From an uncultured Chthonomonas sp. (GTDB taxonomy: Bacteria; Armatimonadota; Chthonomonadetes; Chthonomonadales; CAJBBX01), in NCBI GenBank assembly GCA_903951425.1, contig CAJBBX010000159.1:1-34136 (forward strand): a stretch of 34,136 nt of DNA. The letters are read 5' to 3'. Shown piece after piece: positions 6,142 to 30,571 of this stretch. Within the stretch, counting starts at the first letter, position 1. Each line of letters begins with the position of its first letter. A program made the translations under genes and the position numbers. The notes under the pieces are model-generated. The model made no database searches. It worked only from the letters and a program-made list of their open reading frames with translations, and was not told where the DNA came from.

Positions 6142-6471
6142 ATGAAGCTAGTCATTACCGTGGTGCATGACCGGGACAAGAGCCGGATCACCGAGGCCCT
6201 GCTTCGGCACGGCTACAAGTTCACCAAGATCGGCAGCACCGGCGGCTTCCTCCGCGAGGGCAATGTCACGCTGCTCATCGGCGTGGACGACGCCGAAGTG
6301 GAGAAGGTGCTGGGGGTCGTCGGCGACAGCTGCAAGACGCGCGAGCAGTTCGTCAATGTGCTGCCGCCGGACGCCGCTCCCGTGGGCACCTTCATGCCGT
6401 CGCCCGTGAAGGTGCTGGTGGGCGGAGCCGTGGTCTTCGTGGTGGACGTGGAGCGGTTCGAGCGGTTCTAG
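6142..6471 (+). CDS. darA: Cyclic-di-AMP receptor, PII-like (DarA/PstA family)
   Basis: The 109-residue protein starts MKLVITVVHDRDKSRITEAL and contains the family's most conserved segment, FTKIGSTGGFLREGNVTLLIG (about residues 28-48), where the TGGFL loop and neighbours bind c-di-AMP in known structures. It belongs to the PII-like DUF970 family (DarA, PstA), trimeric proteins that bind c-di-AMP; their downstream targets are mostly unknown. The gene has a GAGAGGAA SD and follows tmk. The synthase CdaA and its regulator CdaR are encoded in the same window at 19612-21465, which supports a working c-di-AMP circuit. In Firmicutes a holB gene often follows in this cluster; here an unrelated gene does. 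Confidence 0.93.
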   Translation: MKLVITVVHDRDKSRITEALLRHGYKFTKIGSTGGFLREGNVTLLIGVDDAEVEKVLGVVGDSCKTREQFVNVLPPDAAPVGTFMPSPVKVLVGGAVVFVVDVERFERF

Positions 6472-18650: not shown

Positions 18651-19615
18651 TCGGCGGGCCCCGGGGCATGGGCGGACTGGCTCAGCATGTCGAGGTCGAA
18701 CCCCTCGCGTCGGACGCGCTGGTCGAAGTAGAGGAGCGTGAACGCTGTGGCGATGAACGGCTGGGCCAGCAGGCCGATGAGCGTGGAGAGGATGCTGCTG
18801 ACCGTGATCTGGGCTTCGTAGGGCATGTGGAGCGCTGGGAACAGCACATACTCGAACAGCGCGTCGATCGATGCGTAGGTGGTGCCCACCAGTAGCGCGG
18901 AGCCCAGCGAAACGGCCACACAGGCGACCGCGAGGCGCCAGACCTGCCCCTTCGCCAGGGCCCACTGGCGGTTCAGCGTCTCCGTGGCCGGGCGCTGCTC
19001 GATCATGACGATCTGGGTCACAAAGACCGAGGTCATCACCGCCACGATCGCCATGACGATCCCGATCACAAGGCCGGCGACCACGCCGACGAATACAGCC
19101 GAAGCCGCACCCATGGAGCCGCCTGCTACCGTCGCTGCGGCCGCGACACCGATGACGACCGCTGTAGCGAACACCGCCGCCACCATCACGGCGCACCAGA
19201 CGATGCCGACGAGGGCCCACGCGGCCAGCAACCGCCAGAACGACCTGCGCACCGATCGGTATGCCGAAGCGAGCGAGGCAGGACGTCCCAGGACGCGCTG
19301 GGCAATGGCCGATGTGAGCGCTCCCGCCTGCAACACGTAGGAGATCGACATCACCGTGGCTGCCACCATGAAGTAGAGCATCATGGCGCCGACGGCCGCC
19401 GCATCCGGCGGCTGGCTTGATGCGCTGATGCGCTCCATTAGGCGGTAGATGCCCAGCCAGTGGGAGGCGAGCCGGTCGATCAGGCTGGCCGGCACGGCCA
19501 CGACTGCGGCGATCCCCGCGAAAAGGACGAAGTGCGACTTATAGAGGTCGAACGCCTCGTCCAGAATGTCGCTGAGCGACATCGGCGCCAGGTTCGTGGC
19601 GGCGCCGGTCGTCAC
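18644..19615 (-). CDS. Multi-pass membrane protein (glycerophosphoryl diester phosphodiesterase membrane domain-like)
   Basis: This 323-residue protein opens MTTGAATNLAPMSLSDILDE and AFDLYKSHFVLF, followed by about six hydrophobic helices (for example FVGVVAGLVIGIVMAIVAVM). It ends with LLYFDQRVRREGFDLDML, a hallmark of the GlpQ membrane-domain-like/DUF975-type family. Such proteins often sit beside DUF4129 genes, exactly as here, and are of unknown function. It overlaps the cdaR stop (ATGA) and the next gene. The long central helices are Ala/Val/Gly-rich without charged residues, so no transport function can be read. Confidence 0.82.
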   Translation of the reverse strand: MTTGAATNLAPMSLSDILDEAFDLYKSHFVLFAGIAAVVAVPASLIDRLASHWLGIYRLMERISASSQPPDAAAVGAMMLYFMVAATVMSISYVLQAGALTSAIAQRVLGRPASLASAYRSVRRSFWRLLAAWALVGIVWCAVMVAAVFATAVVIGVAAAATVAGGSMGAASAVFVGVVAGLVIGIVMAIVAVMTSVFVTQIVMIEQRPATETLNRQWALAKGQVWRLAVACVAVSLGSALLVGTTYASIDALFEYVLFPALHMPYEAQITVSSILSTLIGLLAQPFIATAFTLLYFDQRVRREGFDLDMLSQSAHAPGPAEC

Positions 19616-20571
19616 GGAGCGCGCTCCGTCCGCGTAGTGTCCTTCAGTCGGACGGTGACAGATACCGTGGCCGGGGAGCCGGCAATCGATAAACCCGGCG
19701 GGATGACCAGCGCGACCTGCCGGGTGGCATCGGCCGAGGCCCCCTCGACGGTGATGGGCGCGGTGCTGATCGAAGTCACGGTGGCGATATCGGCCGTTGG
19801 GCCCGCCAGTGTGACGGTCATGGGGCTGACCGTTACGCCGTCAATGACAAAGGGCGGGGCCGGCCTGCCGGTGAGTGCCGGCGAGATCACGACGGTCTTG
19901 ACCGCCGCGCTGTCGACTACATCGACCTGGACGCTGACAAGCGCGGGCTCCAGCTGCACGGTATCGACGTTGATGCCGTCGCGGTCCACTGCGCGCAGTT
20001 GCGTGTTGCCGCGGAACGGTCCCTGCCGGGCGATAACCGAGCCCACCACGGCCGTGACCCGCTTCACATCCTGCGTGGAGCCGAGGACCTCGACCTGGGG
20101 CGGGTCCACCTGGGCCGGCGTGAAGGACCGGCCTGTCGGCGGCTGCCCCACGACGTTCAGCGTCACCGGTAGCGTCCGGCGCATGTTGACCGTGACCTCA
20201 ACGGGAACGGAGAGGCGTTGGTCCGGGAAGGTGACCGTGGGGCCCAGCGGCGGCGCGATGAGTTGCACCACCGGCAGTCGCCGCGACGTGGCCGTGGCGG
20301 CGCCCACATCGATGATCGCCTTCACGGCGCCTTCGCTCAGGCGGTCCAGCGCGGCCGCGGGCCCGGAGACGGCAATGCTGATCGTGGCCGCCCTGACCTC
20401 GACGGAGAGGCCCCTCTGCGCCGAGCCCTTGGTCTGGATCTCGGCAAGCACCTGGCGCGAAGGCGCGGCGGCGCGTTGGGTACCCGCATAGGCCCAGATC
20501 ATCAGGGCGGCGGAGAGCGATATGAGCTTCAGCTCCCAGTTGTGGTAGAAGTGCGCCAGTAGCTTACGCAT
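19612..20571 (-). CDS. cdaR: YbbR-domain protein, CdaA regulator
   Basis: The 319-residue protein has one N-terminal membrane anchor (NWELKLISLSAALMIWAYAG, residues 11-30) followed by three or so YbbR-like repeats outside the membrane (for example VTVNMRRTLPVTLNVVGQPP and DVVDSAAVKTVVISPALTGR). CdaR-type YbbR proteins interact with the diadenylate cyclase CdaA and modulate it. The gene begins 9 bp after cdaA and overlaps the following membrane gene. In Firmicutes glmM follows in the same operon; here glmM is missing and two envelope-type membrane genes take its place. Confidence 0.9.
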   Translation of the reverse strand: MRKLLAHFYHNWELKLISLSAALMIWAYAGTQRAAAPSRQVLAEIQTKGSAQRGLSVEVRAATISIAVSGPAAALDRLSEGAVKAIIDVGAATATSRRLPVVQLIAPPLGPTVTFPDQRLSVPVEVTVNMRRTLPVTLNVVGQPPTGRSFTPAQVDPPQVEVLGSTQDVKRVTAVVGSVIARQGPFRGNTQLRAVDRDGINVDTVQLEPALVSVQVDVVDSAAVKTVVISPALTGRPAPPFVIDGVTVSPMTVTLAGPTADIATVTSISTAPITVEGASADATRQVALVIPPGLSIAGSPATVSVTVRLKDTTRTERAP

Positions 20572-20580
20572 GCGTCCTGC

Positions 20581-21465
20581 CTATTGCCCCGACTCGCGCT
20601 CTCGATTGCGCTTCATGATCGCGCCGCCCACGCGGTTGGCCACCTGGCCGATCCGTTCGCGAGCGGCGGCACGGGCGTCCTGCACCTTCAGGAAGGCCTG
20701 CAGTCGTTCCCGCAGCGTGTCTTCGCGGAATGGCCTCAGCAGCTTGCCATCTGCCGCGATGGAGACGATCCCCGTCTCCTCGCTGACCACGACGACGATG
20801 GCGTCGCTGGCTTCCGACATCCCGAGCGCCGCCTTGTGCCGCGTGTGGACGGTGGCATCGACCCTCGGGCTGTCGGTCAGCGGCAACGTACAGCCGGCCG
20901 CCAGAACCTTCCCATGGCGAACCACCACGGCGCCGTCGTGCAGCGGAGTGCCCTTATAGAAGATCGTGTCCAGCAGGCTGGCGGAAGCCACGGCATCTAC
21001 CAGCGTGCCGGTGGCGACGATGTCCTCAACCTGGCTCTCACGCTCAAAGACGATCAACGCGCCGATCCGCTTCACGGACATGACCGAGACGGCCGCAACC
21101 ACCTCGTCGATTGCCTGCGAGACATCCGCCGTGCTGGAGTGGACGAGGCCGCTGCCCCAGAAGCCGGGCCTGCCGAACTCCTCCAGGGCATGCCGCAACT
21201 CCGGCAGGAAGAGGACCACCAGAGCCACAGGTCCGAGGACGAGGGCCTCCTTGAGGAGCCAGTTCAGCGCGTAGAGGTTGAGCCAATCGGTTGCCAGCAC
21301 CATGGCAAAGAAGACGATGAGGCCGCCCATCACCTGCAGTGCGCGGGTTCCGCGGGCGACAAGGAGGAGCCGGTAGATGAGGTAGCCGATGAGGAAGACG
21401 TCCGCGACAGCGCCGGGACTGATGTACTTCAGCAGCAAGGACCAGTCAGGCAGCCATTGGCTCAT
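20581..21465 (-). CDS. cdaA: Diadenylate cyclase (cyclic-di-AMP synthase) CdaA
   Basis: The 294-residue enzyme has three N-terminal membrane helices (about 20-85) and then the DAC domain. The DGA motif is intact as PLHDGAVVV (174-182). The second motif, normally RHR, reads TRHKAALGMSE (208-218), so Lys replaces the second Arg. It is followed by AIVVVVSEETGIVS. DAC enzymes condense two ATP into c-di-AMP; the receptor DarA is encoded at 6142-6471 in this window. The RHR arginines contact the ATP phosphates, so the Lys change is worth testing for activity, though a positive charge is kept. The start ATG at 21465 has a weak SD (GGAAG). Confidence 0.93.
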   Translation of the reverse strand: MSQWLPDWSLLLKYISPGAVADVFLIGYLIYRLLLVARGTRALQVMGGLIVFFAMVLATDWLNLYALNWLLKEALVLGPVALVVLFLPELRHALEEFGRPGFWGSGLVHSSTADVSQAIDEVVAAVSVMSVKRIGALIVFERESQVEDIVATGTLVDAVASASLLDTIFYKGTPLHDGAVVVRHGKVLAAGCTLPLTDSPRVDATVHTRHKAALGMSEASDAIVVVVSEETGIVSIAADGKLLRPFREDTLRERLQAFLKVQDARAAARERIGQVANRVGGAIMKRNRERESGQ

Positions 21466-26403: not shown

Positions 26404-27609
26404 TCAGGGCTTGGATGCCGTGCCGTCCGGTGTGCGTGCCTGGGTCCAGACATCGATCTCGTTGGAGCAGGGGAAGCGCGCGGCGGCCTCCTCATCGAGA
26501 TCGATCCCAAAGCCGGGCTGGTCGTTGGGATACAAGTACCCTTGGCGCACTTCGGGGCAACCGGGGAAGACCTCTTGTAGAGCCTCGTTGAACCCCGCGA
26601 ACTCCTGCACACCGAAGTTCGGGACGGAGACATCCAGGTGGAGGTTGCATGCGTGGCCCAACGGCGAGACATCTCCGGGCCCGTGCCACGCCGTGCGCAC
26701 GCCGTGCAGCTCCGCGTAGGCCGCCACCTTCCGCGCCGGTGTGAGGCCGCCCATCTGGCTGATGTGCATACGCACGTAGTCCAGCAGGCGGGCAGAGATT
26801 AACGGCGTCCATTCGCGCGGGCTGTTGAAGAGCTCGCCGATGGCGATGGGCGTCGCGCACTGGGAGCGGATCGCAGCAAGGTAGTCGATATCCTCCGGGG
26901 CCAACGGGTCCTCGAGGAAGAAGAGCGAGTAGGGCTCGAGCCGCTTGGCAAGCAGCACCGCGTCGCCGGGCCGCAGCCGCTCATGGACGTCGTGCAGCAG
27001 TTCCACCTCATCGCCCAGCGTGCTCCGGAGGTGCTCAAACAGCCTGGGCACCGAGCGGGCATAGGCCGCCGGGTCGAAGTAAGCGCCGTCGGGCGATCCT
27101 TCCGGGCGGTGCAGGTCGCCTGTGCGGCCCCCATAGCCGCCCATCTGGGCGCGCACGTGGGTGAGCCCCTCGGCCATCCACCGGCGGACGTTGTCTTCAA
27201 CTTCCACCGGAGTGCGGCCGTCGGCGTGGCGGTAGATGGCCGCGCCCTGTCGGCAGCGCCCGCCCAGCAACTCGTAGACGGGTAGCCCGGCGCGTTTGCC
27301 GAGGATGTCCCAAAGCGCCATGTCCACGCCGGATAGGGCATTGTTCAGCACCGGGCCGTTGCGCCAGTAGGAGTGGACCCAGCAGGTCTGCCAGGTGTCC
27401 TCGATCCGGTCCACCGGTCGGTCGATCAGCAAGGGCCGAAGGTACTCCTCCACGGCGCTCTTCACCGCAAGGTGCCGCTGCGTGAAGGTGGCGCACCCCA
27501 GCCCGTAGAGGCCGGCGTCGCTGGTGTCTACGCGAACGACGACCAGCCTTGAGCCGGCGGGAGCCGTCAGGATGACCCGGATGTCGGTGATGGTCGGGAC
27601 GTTAGCCAT
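26404..27609 (-). CDS. Enolase-superfamily dehydratase (mannonate dehydratase/RspA-like)
   Basis: The 401-residue protein belongs to the mandelate racemase/ManD branch of the enolase superfamily. Metal-binding acids lie in ELLHDVHERLRP, LFFLEDPLAPED and AIGELFNSPREW, and the C-terminal HISQMGGLTPARKVA and GVRTAWHGPGDVSPLGHA segments are typical of ManD/RspA proteins. These dehydrate sugar acids such as D-mannonate or D-gluconate, often with low activity, so the substrate here is not fixed. It overlaps the upstream epimerase gene by 8 bp. The start ATG at 27609 precedes MANVPTITDIRVI. Confidence 0.88.
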   Translation of the reverse strand: MANVPTITDIRVILTAPAGSRLVVVRVDTSDAGLYGLGCATFTQRHLAVKSAVEEYLRPLLIDRPVDRIEDTWQTCWVHSYWRNGPVLNNALSGVDMALWDILGKRAGLPVYELLGGRCRQGAAIYRHADGRTPVEVEDNVRRWMAEGLTHVRAQMGGYGGRTGDLHRPEGSPDGAYFDPAAYARSVPRLFEHLRSTLGDEVELLHDVHERLRPGDAVLLAKRLEPYSLFFLEDPLAPEDIDYLAAIRSQCATPIAIGELFNSPREWTPLISARLLDYVRMHISQMGGLTPARKVAAYAELHGVRTAWHGPGDVSPLGHACNLHLDVSVPNFGVQEFAGFNEALQEVFPGCPEVRQGYLYPNDQPGFGIDLDEEAAARFPCSNEIDVWTQARTPDGTASKP

Positions 27610-28675
27610 GGCGCTCCTCCGTGGTGTGGTCGATCAGTCCAGGCAGGGCGAGTTGCGGCCCGCGCCAGTCGAGCCACGTCCCGGCCTCCGGGTCATCCAG
27701 CAGCATGTGCGAGTCGAGGTCAACGTATGTGAACGCGCCGGTGCCGGCCGCGACCGCCACCGAGCAGGCGATGCCGCAGGCCGATTCCAGCATGCAACCG
27801 AGCATTAGCCGTCGCCGCGCCTGCTGCACGAGCGCGATGATCTCCAGCGCTCCGGCGATGCCGCTCTTCATGAGTTTCACGTTGACGCCATACACCGATG
27901 TCCGCTCAAGCACGCGGACGGCATCCTGAGGCGTCAGCACCGCCTCGTCGGCGAGGATGGGTACCGGCGACCCGTGGGCGACGGCATCGAGCGCTGCGAG
28001 GTCGGCGGCGGGAACGGGTTGCTCGACAAACTCCAGGTTCACGGATGCCTGCATCAGCCGGTCGATGAACTCCAGGGCCTCCGGCGCCGTGAAGGCCTGG
28101 TTGGCGTCGACGCGAACGGCCGCATGGCCTGCCCCGGCCATGAGCGCACGGAGCCTCCCGGCCTCGGCCTCCGGCCCCTCGCCGCCCACCTTCACCTTGA
28201 GCCGCGTGAAGCCGGCTGCAACGGCATCATCGATCTGCAGCGGCGCCTGGTCCGTGATCGAGATGGTCGTATCCGTGGTCAGCGCCCGCCTCGCGCCGCC
28301 AAGGCTGCGCCATAGCTGCATATCGTCCCCGCCATGGCGGCAGCGGAGCAGGGCCATCTCGACGCCTGCGCGGGCTGAGGGGCGGTCCGGGAGTAGCGTC
28401 AGGAGCCGTCGGTTCAGGCCCTCGGCGTCTGCCGGGTCGGATCCGACCAGTGCCTCGACGGCCCGCTGCATGTCGCAAAGGAGGGTCGGTGCCGTCTCGC
28501 CGGTGACGTACGGCGCAGAGGCCGCGTCGCCGATTCCATCACGTCCATCGTCGGTGCGGAGGAGGGCACGAACGCAGGTCGAGGTCAGTCGGGGTGCGGC
28601 GTCGCGCGATGTGGCGAATGGGTGGCGGAGCTTGAGCTCTCGGGAGGTGACGCAGACCGAGGTGATGCGTGGCAT
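27602..28675 (-). CDS. Dipeptide epimerase (L-Ala-D/L-Glu epimerase-like, enolase superfamily)
   Basis: The 357-residue protein has the muconate lactonizing-type enolase fold: catalytic Lys in TRLKVKVGG (KxK), metal ligands in VRVDANQAF, EFVEQPVP and ILADEAV, and a second Lys in VNVKLMKSGIAGA. The KxK and MKSGI pattern, with C-terminal DLDSHMLL, matches dipeptide epimerases, which recycle murein peptides by epimerising L-Ala-D-Glu. A related substrate is possible. The ATG at 28675 sits two bases downstream of a GC-rich hairpin and has no visible SD. The neighbouring enolase-family gene overlaps it, so the two may act together. Confidence 0.88.
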   Translation of the reverse strand: MPRITSVCVTSRELKLRHPFATSRDAAPRLTSTCVRALLRTDDGRDGIGDAASAPYVTGETAPTLLCDMQRAVEALVGSDPADAEGLNRRLLTLLPDRPSARAGVEMALLRCRHGGDDMQLWRSLGGARRALTTDTTISITDQAPLQIDDAVAAGFTRLKVKVGGEGPEAEAGRLRALMAGAGHAAVRVDANQAFTAPEALEFIDRLMQASVNLEFVEQPVPAADLAALDAVAHGSPVPILADEAVLTPQDAVRVLERTSVYGVNVKLMKSGIAGALEIIALVQQARRRLMLGCMLESACGIACSVAVAAGTGAFTYVDLDSHMLLDDPEAGTWLDWRGPQLALPGLIDHTTEERHG

Positions 28676-28677
28676 GA

Positions 28678-28701
28678 GGGCCGGTCAGTCTCGACCGGCC
28701 C
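28678..28701 (-). terminator. GC-rich hairpin directly before the epimerase start
   Basis: GGGCCGGTC (28678-28686) and GACCGGCCC (28693-28701) form a perfect 9-bp stem with a 6-nt loop. On the minus strand it ends 2 nt before the ATG of the epimerase gene. It may end the sigma-TPR/peptide transcript or sequester the translation start of the epimerase gene. No T-run follows. Confidence 0.5.
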
Positions 28702-28758: not shown

Positions 28759-28920
28759 CTAACCGTGGGTCTCCTGGCCGTCACTGCCCTTGTCGCACGT
28801 CTGGGACGCGGCATGCGGCTGGTCGCTCGACGCCGAAGCTGCGGACGGTCGCACCGCTGCCAGTGTGCAAAGGATGGCCCCAACGGCAAGGACCAGTCGG
28901 ATCAGTCGGATTGCTTTCAT
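28759..28920 (-). CDS. Small exported peptide (53 residues), unknown
   Basis: An ATG at 28920 lies 3 nt after the stop of the sigma/TPR gene and behind an AGGAGAG SD, so it is well placed to be translated. The 53-residue product starts MKAIRLIRLVLAVGAILCTL, a basic N-region and hydrophobic core, then AAVRPSAASASS with signal-peptidase-like A-x-A sites. The remaining 24 or so residues (from about SSDQPHAASQ) are polar, with one Cys and a GSDGQETHG end. This is the layout of secreted peptides encoded beside TPR-type sensors (Phr, PapR, NprX). No peptide family was recognised; a general small exported protein is the alternative. Confidence 0.6.
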   Translation of the reverse strand: MKAIRLIRLVLAVGAILCTLAAVRPSAASASSDQPHAASQTCDKGSDGQETHG

Positions 28921-28923
28921 GGG

Positions 28924-30459
28924 TTAACTCTCCTCCGAGAGGCTCTCCTCGAGCCACGACCACCAGGCGATCAGGTCGTGGTCGCGTATCTGGCAAAGGG
29001 TGCGGAGCAGGCCCTCGGCCTGGCATGTGGCGCTGTTGGCCCGTACAACGGTCTCCAGCACCTCCTTGGCCTCCATGAAGTATCGATCCTTCACGTAGGC
29101 CAGGATAAGGTTGCACGCCCGCATGGGCGTCGGTTTCTGCATGGCCAGTCGGGCATAGGTGGTGGCCATTTCGATGTTGCGCTCGCGGTTGCGGCCGGCG
29201 TCGAACCACGTGATGTGGATATCCGCCGCATTGGTGGCTGCGATCAGCCTGTGGTCGCCCGCTGCGTCCATCGCCATGATGGTCTCGTAGACCCGCAGCG
29301 CGTCGCGCAGGTTGCCCATCTGGCTTTGCATGACGCCGACTTCGTTGAGCGCCTCGATGAAGGTCGGCTCGGTCTCGTAGCACGCCTTGTAGTGCGTCAG
29401 CGCTGCCCCCAGGTCCCCGTTCTTTCGCAGTTCCCGCGCTCGCTGATAGAGCGATGCGGCTACGGCGCTCCTGGGCGTCGGCTTGTCGACGGTGTAGAGG
29501 TCGATCACCCGCATCGCGCCGCGCATGTCCGGCGAGGGCGGGGCGGTGGAGGCGGCTTCGGTGACGTCGTTCACGATGGCCTCTTCCACCATGCCGCCGG
29601 AGGCGGGCGCACGATCTGTCCAGTGCGTCTCCAGCAACTTGCGCACGAGCGCATCCTGCCTGGCGCCCGACCATGCTGCGGACGGCTGCGACTTGGGCCG
29701 CACTCGGCTCCTCCTCTGTCGACTGAGCATCTGGATAAACGGGTTGTCGTCTCCGCACTCGGTGCGCAGGATCTGTGCCAACGCTGACCTTGCCCGGCAG
29801 AGCGTCTGGCGGTCGCGGTCCGTGTCGGCGCCGATCTCGGATCCGGCGGCGCGGGCCCGCGCTCGGGCCACGTCTCGCGAGATGGCCTCGGCATAGTGCT
29901 TGGGCACTGTACGGAGGGCCGATGCCAAGGCGTGGCGGAAACTGGTCTGGTCCTCTGCGTCCAGCGTCGCTTGCTCGGGGCGGCCGTCAGGCGCCGTGTC
30001 TTCGATCAGGTCGCCGAGGAGCGGAGCCCCTTCAGAGCCCGATTGCACCGGCTGATCGAGGCTGATCGCAAACGGCTCGCGGGCCAATTGGCGCGCCTGG
30101 TCGGCCACCACGGACTTGATCGCCCGGGCCAGGTAAGCGCCGGGATCGGGAAACATGGAGCCCAGGGCATCGGTGAAACTGACGCCCTCCTGCGGCCGGA
30201 AGCGCCGCATGGCAACGCGGGCTGTCTTGCTGGAGGCCTCGGCCAGGGCGGCATAGCAATCGTTGGCGCTCAGGCGAGGCACCCGGGTGCGGCCATCGTC
30301 GCCCACACGCGGGGCAGTCAGCAGCGTAATGGCACGCGGACCGAAACGGCGGGCCACCGTCTCGGCTGCGGTCACGGCGTCGGGCGCCGCTACCGCGCCG
30401 AACGGTGCGGCCTGCCTCGCGTCGGTCCAGGTTGTCTCCGCCAGGGTAGTTCGGTTCAT
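28924..30459 (-). CDS. Sigma-factor-like protein with C-terminal TPR region
   Basis: Starting at the ATG 30459 (MNRTTLAETTW, behind GGCGAGACC) the protein is 511 residues; the frame is open to 30612 but that part looks non-coding. The N-terminal half resembles a divergent sigma-70/ECF protein: helices with YAALAEASSKTARVAMRRF, AYLARAIKSVVADQARQLA, and a region-4-like helix set with ALRTVPKHYAEAISRDVARA and CRARSALAQILR. The C-terminal part (about 335-490) has TPR-like pairs (LYQRARELRKNGDLGAALTH, EVGVMQSQMGNLRDALRVYE). DNA-binding plus a TPR sensor domain recalls peptide-regulated RRNPP regulators or TPR-bearing ECF sigma factors. No anti-sigma factor is adjacent; a small exported peptide follows. 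Confidence 0.7.
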   Translation of the reverse strand: MNRTTLAETTWTDARQAAPFGAVAAPDAVTAAETVARRFGPRAITLLTAPRVGDDGRTRVPRLSANDCYAALAEASSKTARVAMRRFRPQEGVSFTDALGSMFPDPGAYLARAIKSVVADQARQLAREPFAISLDQPVQSGSEGAPLLGDLIEDTAPDGRPEQATLDAEDQTSFRHALASALRTVPKHYAEAISRDVARARARAAGSEIGADTDRDRQTLCRARSALAQILRTECGDDNPFIQMLSRQRRSRVRPKSQPSAAWSGARQDALVRKLLETHWTDRAPASGGMVEEAIVNDVTEAASTAPPSPDMRGAMRVIDLYTVDKPTPRSAVAASLYQRARELRKNGDLGAALTHYKACYETEPTFIEALNEVGVMQSQMGNLRDALRVYETIMAMDAAGDHRLIAATNAADIHITWFDAGRNRERNIEMATTYARLAMQKPTPMRACNLILAYVKDRYFMEAKEVLETVVRANSATCQAEGLLRTLCQIRDHDLIAWWSWLEESLSEES

Positions 30460-30514
30460 GGTCTCGCCGCCGATGTCCGCTCGATGCGCTACGTCCCTAC
30501 TGACCAGTACGCGA

Positions 30515-30530
30515 CACGGCTTCGACCGTG
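30515..30530. repeat. Short inverted repeat upstream of the sigma/TPR gene
   Basis: CACGG-cttcga-CCGTG lies in the 112-bp gap between the alpha-mannosidase stop and the sigma/TPR start. It may be a weak terminator or a regulator site. No clear -10/-35 pair was seen near it. Confidence 0.25.
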
Positions 30531-30571
30531 ACACGACTCTTCCGTAAATCGGCGCTGAGCGGTACACGAGG

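Follow-up and report, generated by a model that had tools for sequence, protein, structure and literature searches.

The genomes of the Chthonomonadales (Armatimonadota) carry a two-gene unit, in which a gene for a predicted sigma-like/TPR fusion protein is directly followed by a small open reading frame for a putative exported peptide with an almost invariant terminal motif. With slightly more confidence than doubt, we interpret the pair as a one-operon, peptide-responsive ECF-like sigma factor, whose TPR part would bind the processed product of the co-transcribed peptide gene. The wider proposition is that throughout the order an autoregulated sigma factor serves inside the cell as receptor for the peptide encoded with it, once this has been exported and re-imported, and represents a new class of signalling system; on this our judgement is evenly divided. 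The pair is located in a window of 34,136 nucleotides (the whole stretch of DNA analysed) of a draft genome of 6.08 Mb, with the following features:

30528-30533, minus strand: TGTCAC, -35-like element of a predicted ECF-type operon promoter
30508-30511, minus strand: CGTA, -10-like element 16 bp after TGTCAC, from the order-wide upstream comparison
28924-30459, minus strand: gene of the 511-residue sigma-like/TPR fusion protein
30082-30381, minus strand: sigma region 2-like part (residues 27-126), including FPDPxAYLARAIRSVxSDxxR
29752-29979, minus strand: sigma region 4-like part (residues 161-236) with the near-invariant recognition-helix stretch ERQTxCRARAAL
28927-29469, minus strand: predicted TPR superhelix (residues 331-511) with strongly conserved inner-face positions
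28930-28936, minus strand: GGAGGAG, Shine-Dalgarno sequence of the small frame, within the end of the large gene
28759-28920, minus strand: predicted 53-residue precursor of an exported peptide
28831-28920, minus strand: predicted signal sequence, MKAIRLIR plus a hydrophobic stretch, with an ASA/SS cleavage-like site
28762-28782, minus strand: conserved C-terminal heptapeptide DGQETHG
28678-28701, minus strand: inverted repeat between the peptide frame and the next gene

The large open reading frame (30459-28924) comprises 511 codons from an ATG at 30459, and the same frame allows a maximum of 562 residues. Three bases (CCC) separate it from the ATG at 28920 of the small frame (28920-28759), which encodes MKAIRLIRLVLAVGAILCTLAAVRPSAASASSDQPHAASQTCDKGSDGQETHG. 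Behind the pair, a hairpin with a perfect 9-bp stem (GGGCCGGTC/GACCGGCCC, 28701-28678) is situated just ahead of the next gene (28675) and is kept in two genus-mates. The preliminary description had reported the two frames, their 3-bp spacing, a good Shine-Dalgarno sequence and the hairpin, all of which we could reproduce from the sequence. A function of the hairpin as terminator is not obvious, as it lacks a T-run and stands immediately before a gene.

Among the 31 genomes of the order, 29 contain an orthologue of the 511-residue protein, always as a single copy and with 39-94% identity. The two genomes without an orthologue are 78% and 64% complete, and the motif DG(Q/V/I)ETHG is absent from them as well. 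The named records of a GTDB scan all belong to Armatimonadetes, Chthonomonadales, Chthonomonadaceae or Chthonomonas, and the scan named no homologue outside Armatimonadota/Chthonomonadales-type genomes.

In Pfam (up to E 5) the large protein matches generic TPR families and nothing else, and its NCBIfam matches are likewise generic TPR proteins. Sigma domains (Sigma70_r2, Sigma70_r4) were not detected in it up to E 5, are missing from the 25 commonest Pfam families of the 29 members, and the protein is not among the 26 Sigma70_r2 matches of its host genome. The lack of a Pfam sigma domain in the window protein implies that its sigma module is strongly diverged. Searches with the whole-protein model (VIA and Foldseek) were filled by TPR proteins and uninformative on the N-terminal half, which was therefore folded separately (pLDDT 80.5). 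For this separate model Foldseek listed 50 matches from the PDB (best E 6.1e-3), each of which is a sigma subunit or an RNA polymerase complex. Sigma factors likewise make up nearly all of its VIA rows, with region 4 of SigL as the best match (3hug; Z 6.1 over 66 residues, 3.6 A) and Z values of about 5 for SigH, sigma28, SigE and AlgU. A profile-profile comparison with the ECF sigma factors of the same genome reached a probability of 92.1% over 126 columns, from about residue 110 to about residue 246; the reversed control reached 0.8%, and none of eight shuffled controls exceeded 0.4%. The N-terminal profile gave a marginal match among PDB sequences (ECF SigL, E 0.037), and the sigma case therefore rests on the profile-profile and the structural comparisons. 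Taken singly the scores are weak, and it is the unanimity of the matches that supports a predicted sigma2/sigma4 fold for the modelled N-terminal half.

Several residues of both sigma-like parts are invariant throughout the order. These are F103, P104, A108-L110, S116, V117, D120 and R123 in the region 2-like stretch, and R217, Q218 and C221-R224 in the stretch aligned with the region 4.2 recognition helix. FPDPxAYLARAIRSVISDxxR aligns with region 2 (...WLyrIArNlxxDxxR...) and ERQTVCRARAAL with the region 4 recognition helix. The helix-turn-helix of region 4 has an atypical first helix.

The C-terminal half is clearly a TPR superhelix in the AlphaFold prediction, with pLDDT values mostly of 80-95 and VIA matches to TPR proteins at Z of about 14-15 over about 150 residues. 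RRNPP receptors were not among the TPR matches listed by VIA and Foldseek for the whole model. With repeat registers assigned by hand, the inner-face positions 2, 5, 6, 9, 12 and 13 of repeats 2-4 are mostly 75-100% conserved and the helix-B surface positions are variable. N410, D413, N450 and K457 are invariant inner-face residues, and nowhere in the protein is the mean entropy lower than in repeat 3 (0.71 bits). The two halves thus agree with the sigma-70-like N-terminal and TPR-like C-terminal regions proposed in the preliminary description: the former is borne out by the profile-profile comparison and both structure searches, with no Pfam match and with regions 2 and 4 both present in the predicted fold, the latter by the generic Pfam TPR families and the predicted superhelix.

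The preliminary description had also tied its proposal to a small signal-bearing frame beside the homologues, and such a frame follows the large gene in all 29 orthologue loci. It encodes 51-78 residues with a basic N-terminus, a hydrophobic stretch and the motif DG(Q/V/I)ETHG, and starts between -14 and +9 nt relative to the stop of the large gene, often in an ATGA or GTGA overlap. In the window the precursor has an N-terminal charge of +3 and a hydropathy maximum of 2.73 over 15 residues; its ASA|SS cleavage-like site was judged by eye only. DGQETHG is identical in 18 of the 29 orthologues, and the remainder have DGVETHG (five), NGQETHG (two), DGQESHG (two), DGIETHG (one) and DGQETGG (one), so that hardly any variation of the motif is seen in 19 genera and three families. 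Its codons vary synonymously (GGC/GGG/GGT/GGA; ACC/ACG/ACA/ACT) with the residues constant, and we interpret the motif, from this sequence pattern, as being under purifying selection. Outside these approximately seven residues both the length and the sequence of the mature part vary freely, and some tails are rich in His, Gly or Lys. In one family (f1) the motif forms the exact C-terminal end, in another (f3) a polar tail of 3-13 residues follows, and one precursor (L007) displays DGQETHG twice with a K/G-rich linker in between. The constant pairing (29 of 29), the conservation of the motif and the non-conserved flanks indicate that the small frame is a real gene and belongs with the large one.

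A DNA pattern for DGxETHG has one match, at the locus of the pair, in most genomes of the order. Extra matches at two loci (L059, L040; G024:C529, G007:C15) were rejected as further precursors, as they are not small signal-bearing frames. Seven receptor columns separate the sequences with Q from those with V or I at peptide residue 3, three of them in the TPR part, including inner-face S379. As evidence for coupling this co-variation is weak, the V/I group being one clade and a single event.

The region upstream of the pair provides an indication of its regulation. The pattern (T/C/A)GTCAC-N16/17-CG(T/C) is present in all 28 loci of the order for which upstream sequence is available, and the strict form TGTCAC-N16/17-CGT in 23 of them, compared to a mean of 0.04 and a maximum of 1 in shuffled sequences; the opposite strand of the 28 regions contains no strict match. 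In the upstream reading, most start codons have TGTCAC about 55-110 nt ahead of them, and CGT follows it after 16 bp. An ECF-type promoter at this position suggests, as its natural reading, self-activation or self-regulation of the pair. The patterns TGTCAC-N16-CGTM and TGTCACG-N15-CGTA are not enriched genome-wide over reversed-pattern controls, and in genus g1 most genome-wide sites fall within open reading frames. If this sigma factor owns the pattern, the lack of enrichment implies a tiny regulon, perhaps with little beyond the operon itself. One other site (CGTCAC or TGTCAC, N16, CGTC) is kept in all three members of the genus (G000, G001, G002), where the gene downstream of it encodes a secreted Gly/Arg/Gln-rich protein of some 480 residues (L182 at G000:C5, ~97.1 kb; L165 at G002:C162; L167 at G001:C45). 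Judged by this site, the gene is a candidate second target of the sigma-TPR protein.

Beyond the pair no neighbouring gene is conserved throughout the order, and the pair therefore represents a self-contained unit. In the window, the gene after the hairpin (27602-28675) is of the mandelate racemase/muconate lactonizing type, with L-Ala-D/L-Glu epimerase as best NCBIfam match; it is the first, epimerase-like member of two adjacent MR_MLE superfamily genes (26404-28675), and a related gene is also found 3' of the sigma-TPR/peptide pair in several other f1 genomes. By reading only, we further noted a CdaA-like diadenylate cyclase with a CdaR-like partner (19612-21465), a DarA-like (DUF970) putative c-di-AMP receptor (6142-6471), and a zeta-toxin-like P-loop kinase (1279-1812) with a nearby DUF4065/SocA-like frame (284-820), the last two being possibly toxin-antitoxin related.

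A remote homologue is found in another armatimonadotal family (L129; G106:C124, reverse strand), where the last 250 residues of a 433-residue protein are homologous (E 1.8e-30), the alignment covering the TPR half only. A 52-residue signal-bearing frame follows, ending in ...MPFLILELGQPG (LGQPG) instead of DGQETHG. Upstream of the homologue AGTCAC-N17-CGTT at -167 is a loose promoter match, of a kind found in about 2% of random windows there. No further homologue of this type was found in the phylum beyond those of the Chthonomonadales. As a single case, it hints at an older architecture, here combined with another peptide.

Both domains, the gene pairing, the peptide motif, the conservation of the TPR inner face and the promoter-like element were computed; that the peptide is translated, exported, processed, imported and bound by the TPR part, and that the sigma-TPR protein recognizes the promoter, we infer. 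The large protein would be a diverged ECF-type sigma70 factor (sigma2 plus sigma4), the activity of which is set by the fused TPR superhelix. The product of the co-transcribed small frame would be a precursor whose signal sequence directs its export, and of which trimming leaves a short peptide around DGQETHG. This peptide would return into the cytoplasm, presumably via an Opp-type importer (Opp-type binding proteins, SBP_bac_5, are present in all three genomes checked), and bind in the TPR groove. An altered contact between the TPR and sigma parts would then act as a switch at TGTCAC-N16-CGTA promoters, in the first place its own, and close a feedback loop. We lean slightly towards activation by the peptide (a positive loop, like that of PapR on PlcR) rather than inhibition. 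The strongly conserved TPR groove adjoining an almost invariant peptide is counted in favour of the peptide-responsive sigma factor. Pheromones of the Rap/Phr type are species-specific and diversify fast; unlike these, the motif is nearly invariant, which makes classical density sensing doubtful. Furthermore, Armatimonadota are regarded as diderm, and two membranes would then lie in the way of the peptide (about 0.7 kDa), which counts against the peptide-responsive sigma factor.

It is also conceivable, if rather unlikely, that the pair is a cell-autonomous sensor of export or of the envelope, in which precursor that has not been exported, or a fragment taken up again, occupies the TPR groove in the same cell and signals whether secretion, signal peptidase or peptide import functions or is blocked. 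Such a sensor would suit a motif that is almost invariant in the order, with no species-specific variants except in one clade, as well as the single copy of the pair per genome and the position of the motif either at the C-terminus or 3-13 residues before it, by which a free end is not required. On the other hand, no secretion or envelope gene is conserved beside the pair, and the doubled motif of the L007 precursor looks more like a processed pheromone. The small frame might instead encode an exported product (a bacteriocin, a metal-binding or a wall-acting peptide) under control of the sigma factor, with the TPR part responding to another partner, such as a protein, which is the proposal for ECF42. 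A target gene, too, is expected to be co-transcribed with an autoregulated sigma factor, the sole known target of ECF41 sigma factors is the neighbouring gene (PMC3426412), and the His/Gly/Lys-rich tails of some precursors would fit as well. We nevertheless consider this quite unlikely, given that about seven residues only are conserved and the rest of the mature part is free, unlike in a folded toxin or enzyme, and that the pair has no conserved neighbour for modification, immunity or transport.

It may also be asked whether the sigma-like half is a working sigma factor. Like the sigma-like domain of PhyR, it could bind an anti-sigma factor or RNA polymerase as a decoy, and the promoter would belong to another sigma factor. 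The strong divergence, Pfam detecting no sigma domain in the window protein, and the atypical first helix of the helix-turn-helix point in this direction. The order-wide invariance of residues in the region 2-like and the recognition-helix-aligned stretches speaks against a decoy. Likewise, none of the 26 other sigma genes of the host genome has the promoter pattern upstream (0 of 26), and an ECF41-type SnoaL domain was found in none of them. We regard a decoy as very improbable.

If the peptide-responsive sigma factor is real, a circuit of TPR receptor and peptide has arisen outside the Firmicutes, in which the peptide receptor is the sigma factor itself and two genes suffice to couple a signal to transcription initiation. 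It would also provide a ligand hypothesis for TPR-fused sigma factors, among which the ECF42 members are widespread and have no known ligand, and a compact kit of sigma factor, peptide and promoter for synthetic regulation. As the peptide is nearly invariant, a single synthetic heptapeptide and a relative in culture would be enough for a direct test.

RRNPP systems are TPR receptors with re-imported peptides (PMC9765709, PMC10075063). As in the RRNPP/RRNPPA group (Rap-Phr, NprR-NprX, PlcR-PapR, Rgg-SHP, AimR), a TPR protein of about 500 residues is coupled with an adjacent precursor of 50-80 residues that carries a secretion signal and, at its C-terminus or close to it, a short conserved segment. 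Of the defining RRNPP features, the pair has a predicted C-terminal TPR domain and an adjacent small frame with secretion signal (29 of 29). The output domain, however, is a helix-turn-helix or a three-helix bundle in the RRNPP definition (PMC9765709) and a predicted sigma2/sigma4 module here. RRNPP systems are known from Firmicutes and their mobile elements rather than from Armatimonadota, their peptides diversify whereas that of the Chthonomonadales is almost invariant, and the Chthonomonadales pair differs further in its predicted ECF-type promoter. The window protein matched no RRNPP-specific profile family (Pfam up to E 5, NCBIfam). The likeness to Rap/Phr, PlcR/PapR and NprR/NprX drawn in the preliminary description holds at the functional level, and homology to RRNPP receptors was found by none of our tests.

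In ECF42, a C-terminal TPR extension controls sigma activity, and a binding partner is predicted to operate this switch (PMC8999054, PMC9023288). The arrangement of sigma2-sigma4 with a fused C-terminal TPR part is shared, here by predicted structure. By contrast, the sigma domains of the window protein are far more diverged, and a candidate ligand gene is always attached in the Chthonomonadales pair, while the ECF42 ligand is unknown. DUF6596 (PF20239), which we take to be a marker of ECF42 in particular, is absent from the window protein up to E 5 and from five genomes of the order. This domain is tied to ECF sigma factors (PMC11119718). The combination had been put forward in the preliminary description as not known to have been described; this does not hold for the sigma-TPR fusion as such, for which ECF42 is a precedent (PMC8999054, PMC9023288), and does hold for its invariant linkage to an exported peptide, since we found no peptide-responsive TPR-sigma factor, or sigma-TPR protein coupled to a conserved exported peptide, described in the open-access literature.

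The promoter resembles the ECF41 target promoter TGTCACA-n16-CGTC (PMC3426412), the form here being TGTCAC-N16-CGT(A/C/T), with the last A of TGTCACA not conserved. A fused, regulating C-terminal domain and a neighbouring gene as main target are further similarities. The extension of ECF41 is SnoaL-like, in contrast to the TPR extension here (the window protein has no SnoaL match), and no oxidoreductase/epimerase-type partner gene is conserved order-wide beside the pair. Altogether the pair appears to work like RRNPP systems without their architecture and taxonomy, and to be built like ECF42 without DUF6596.
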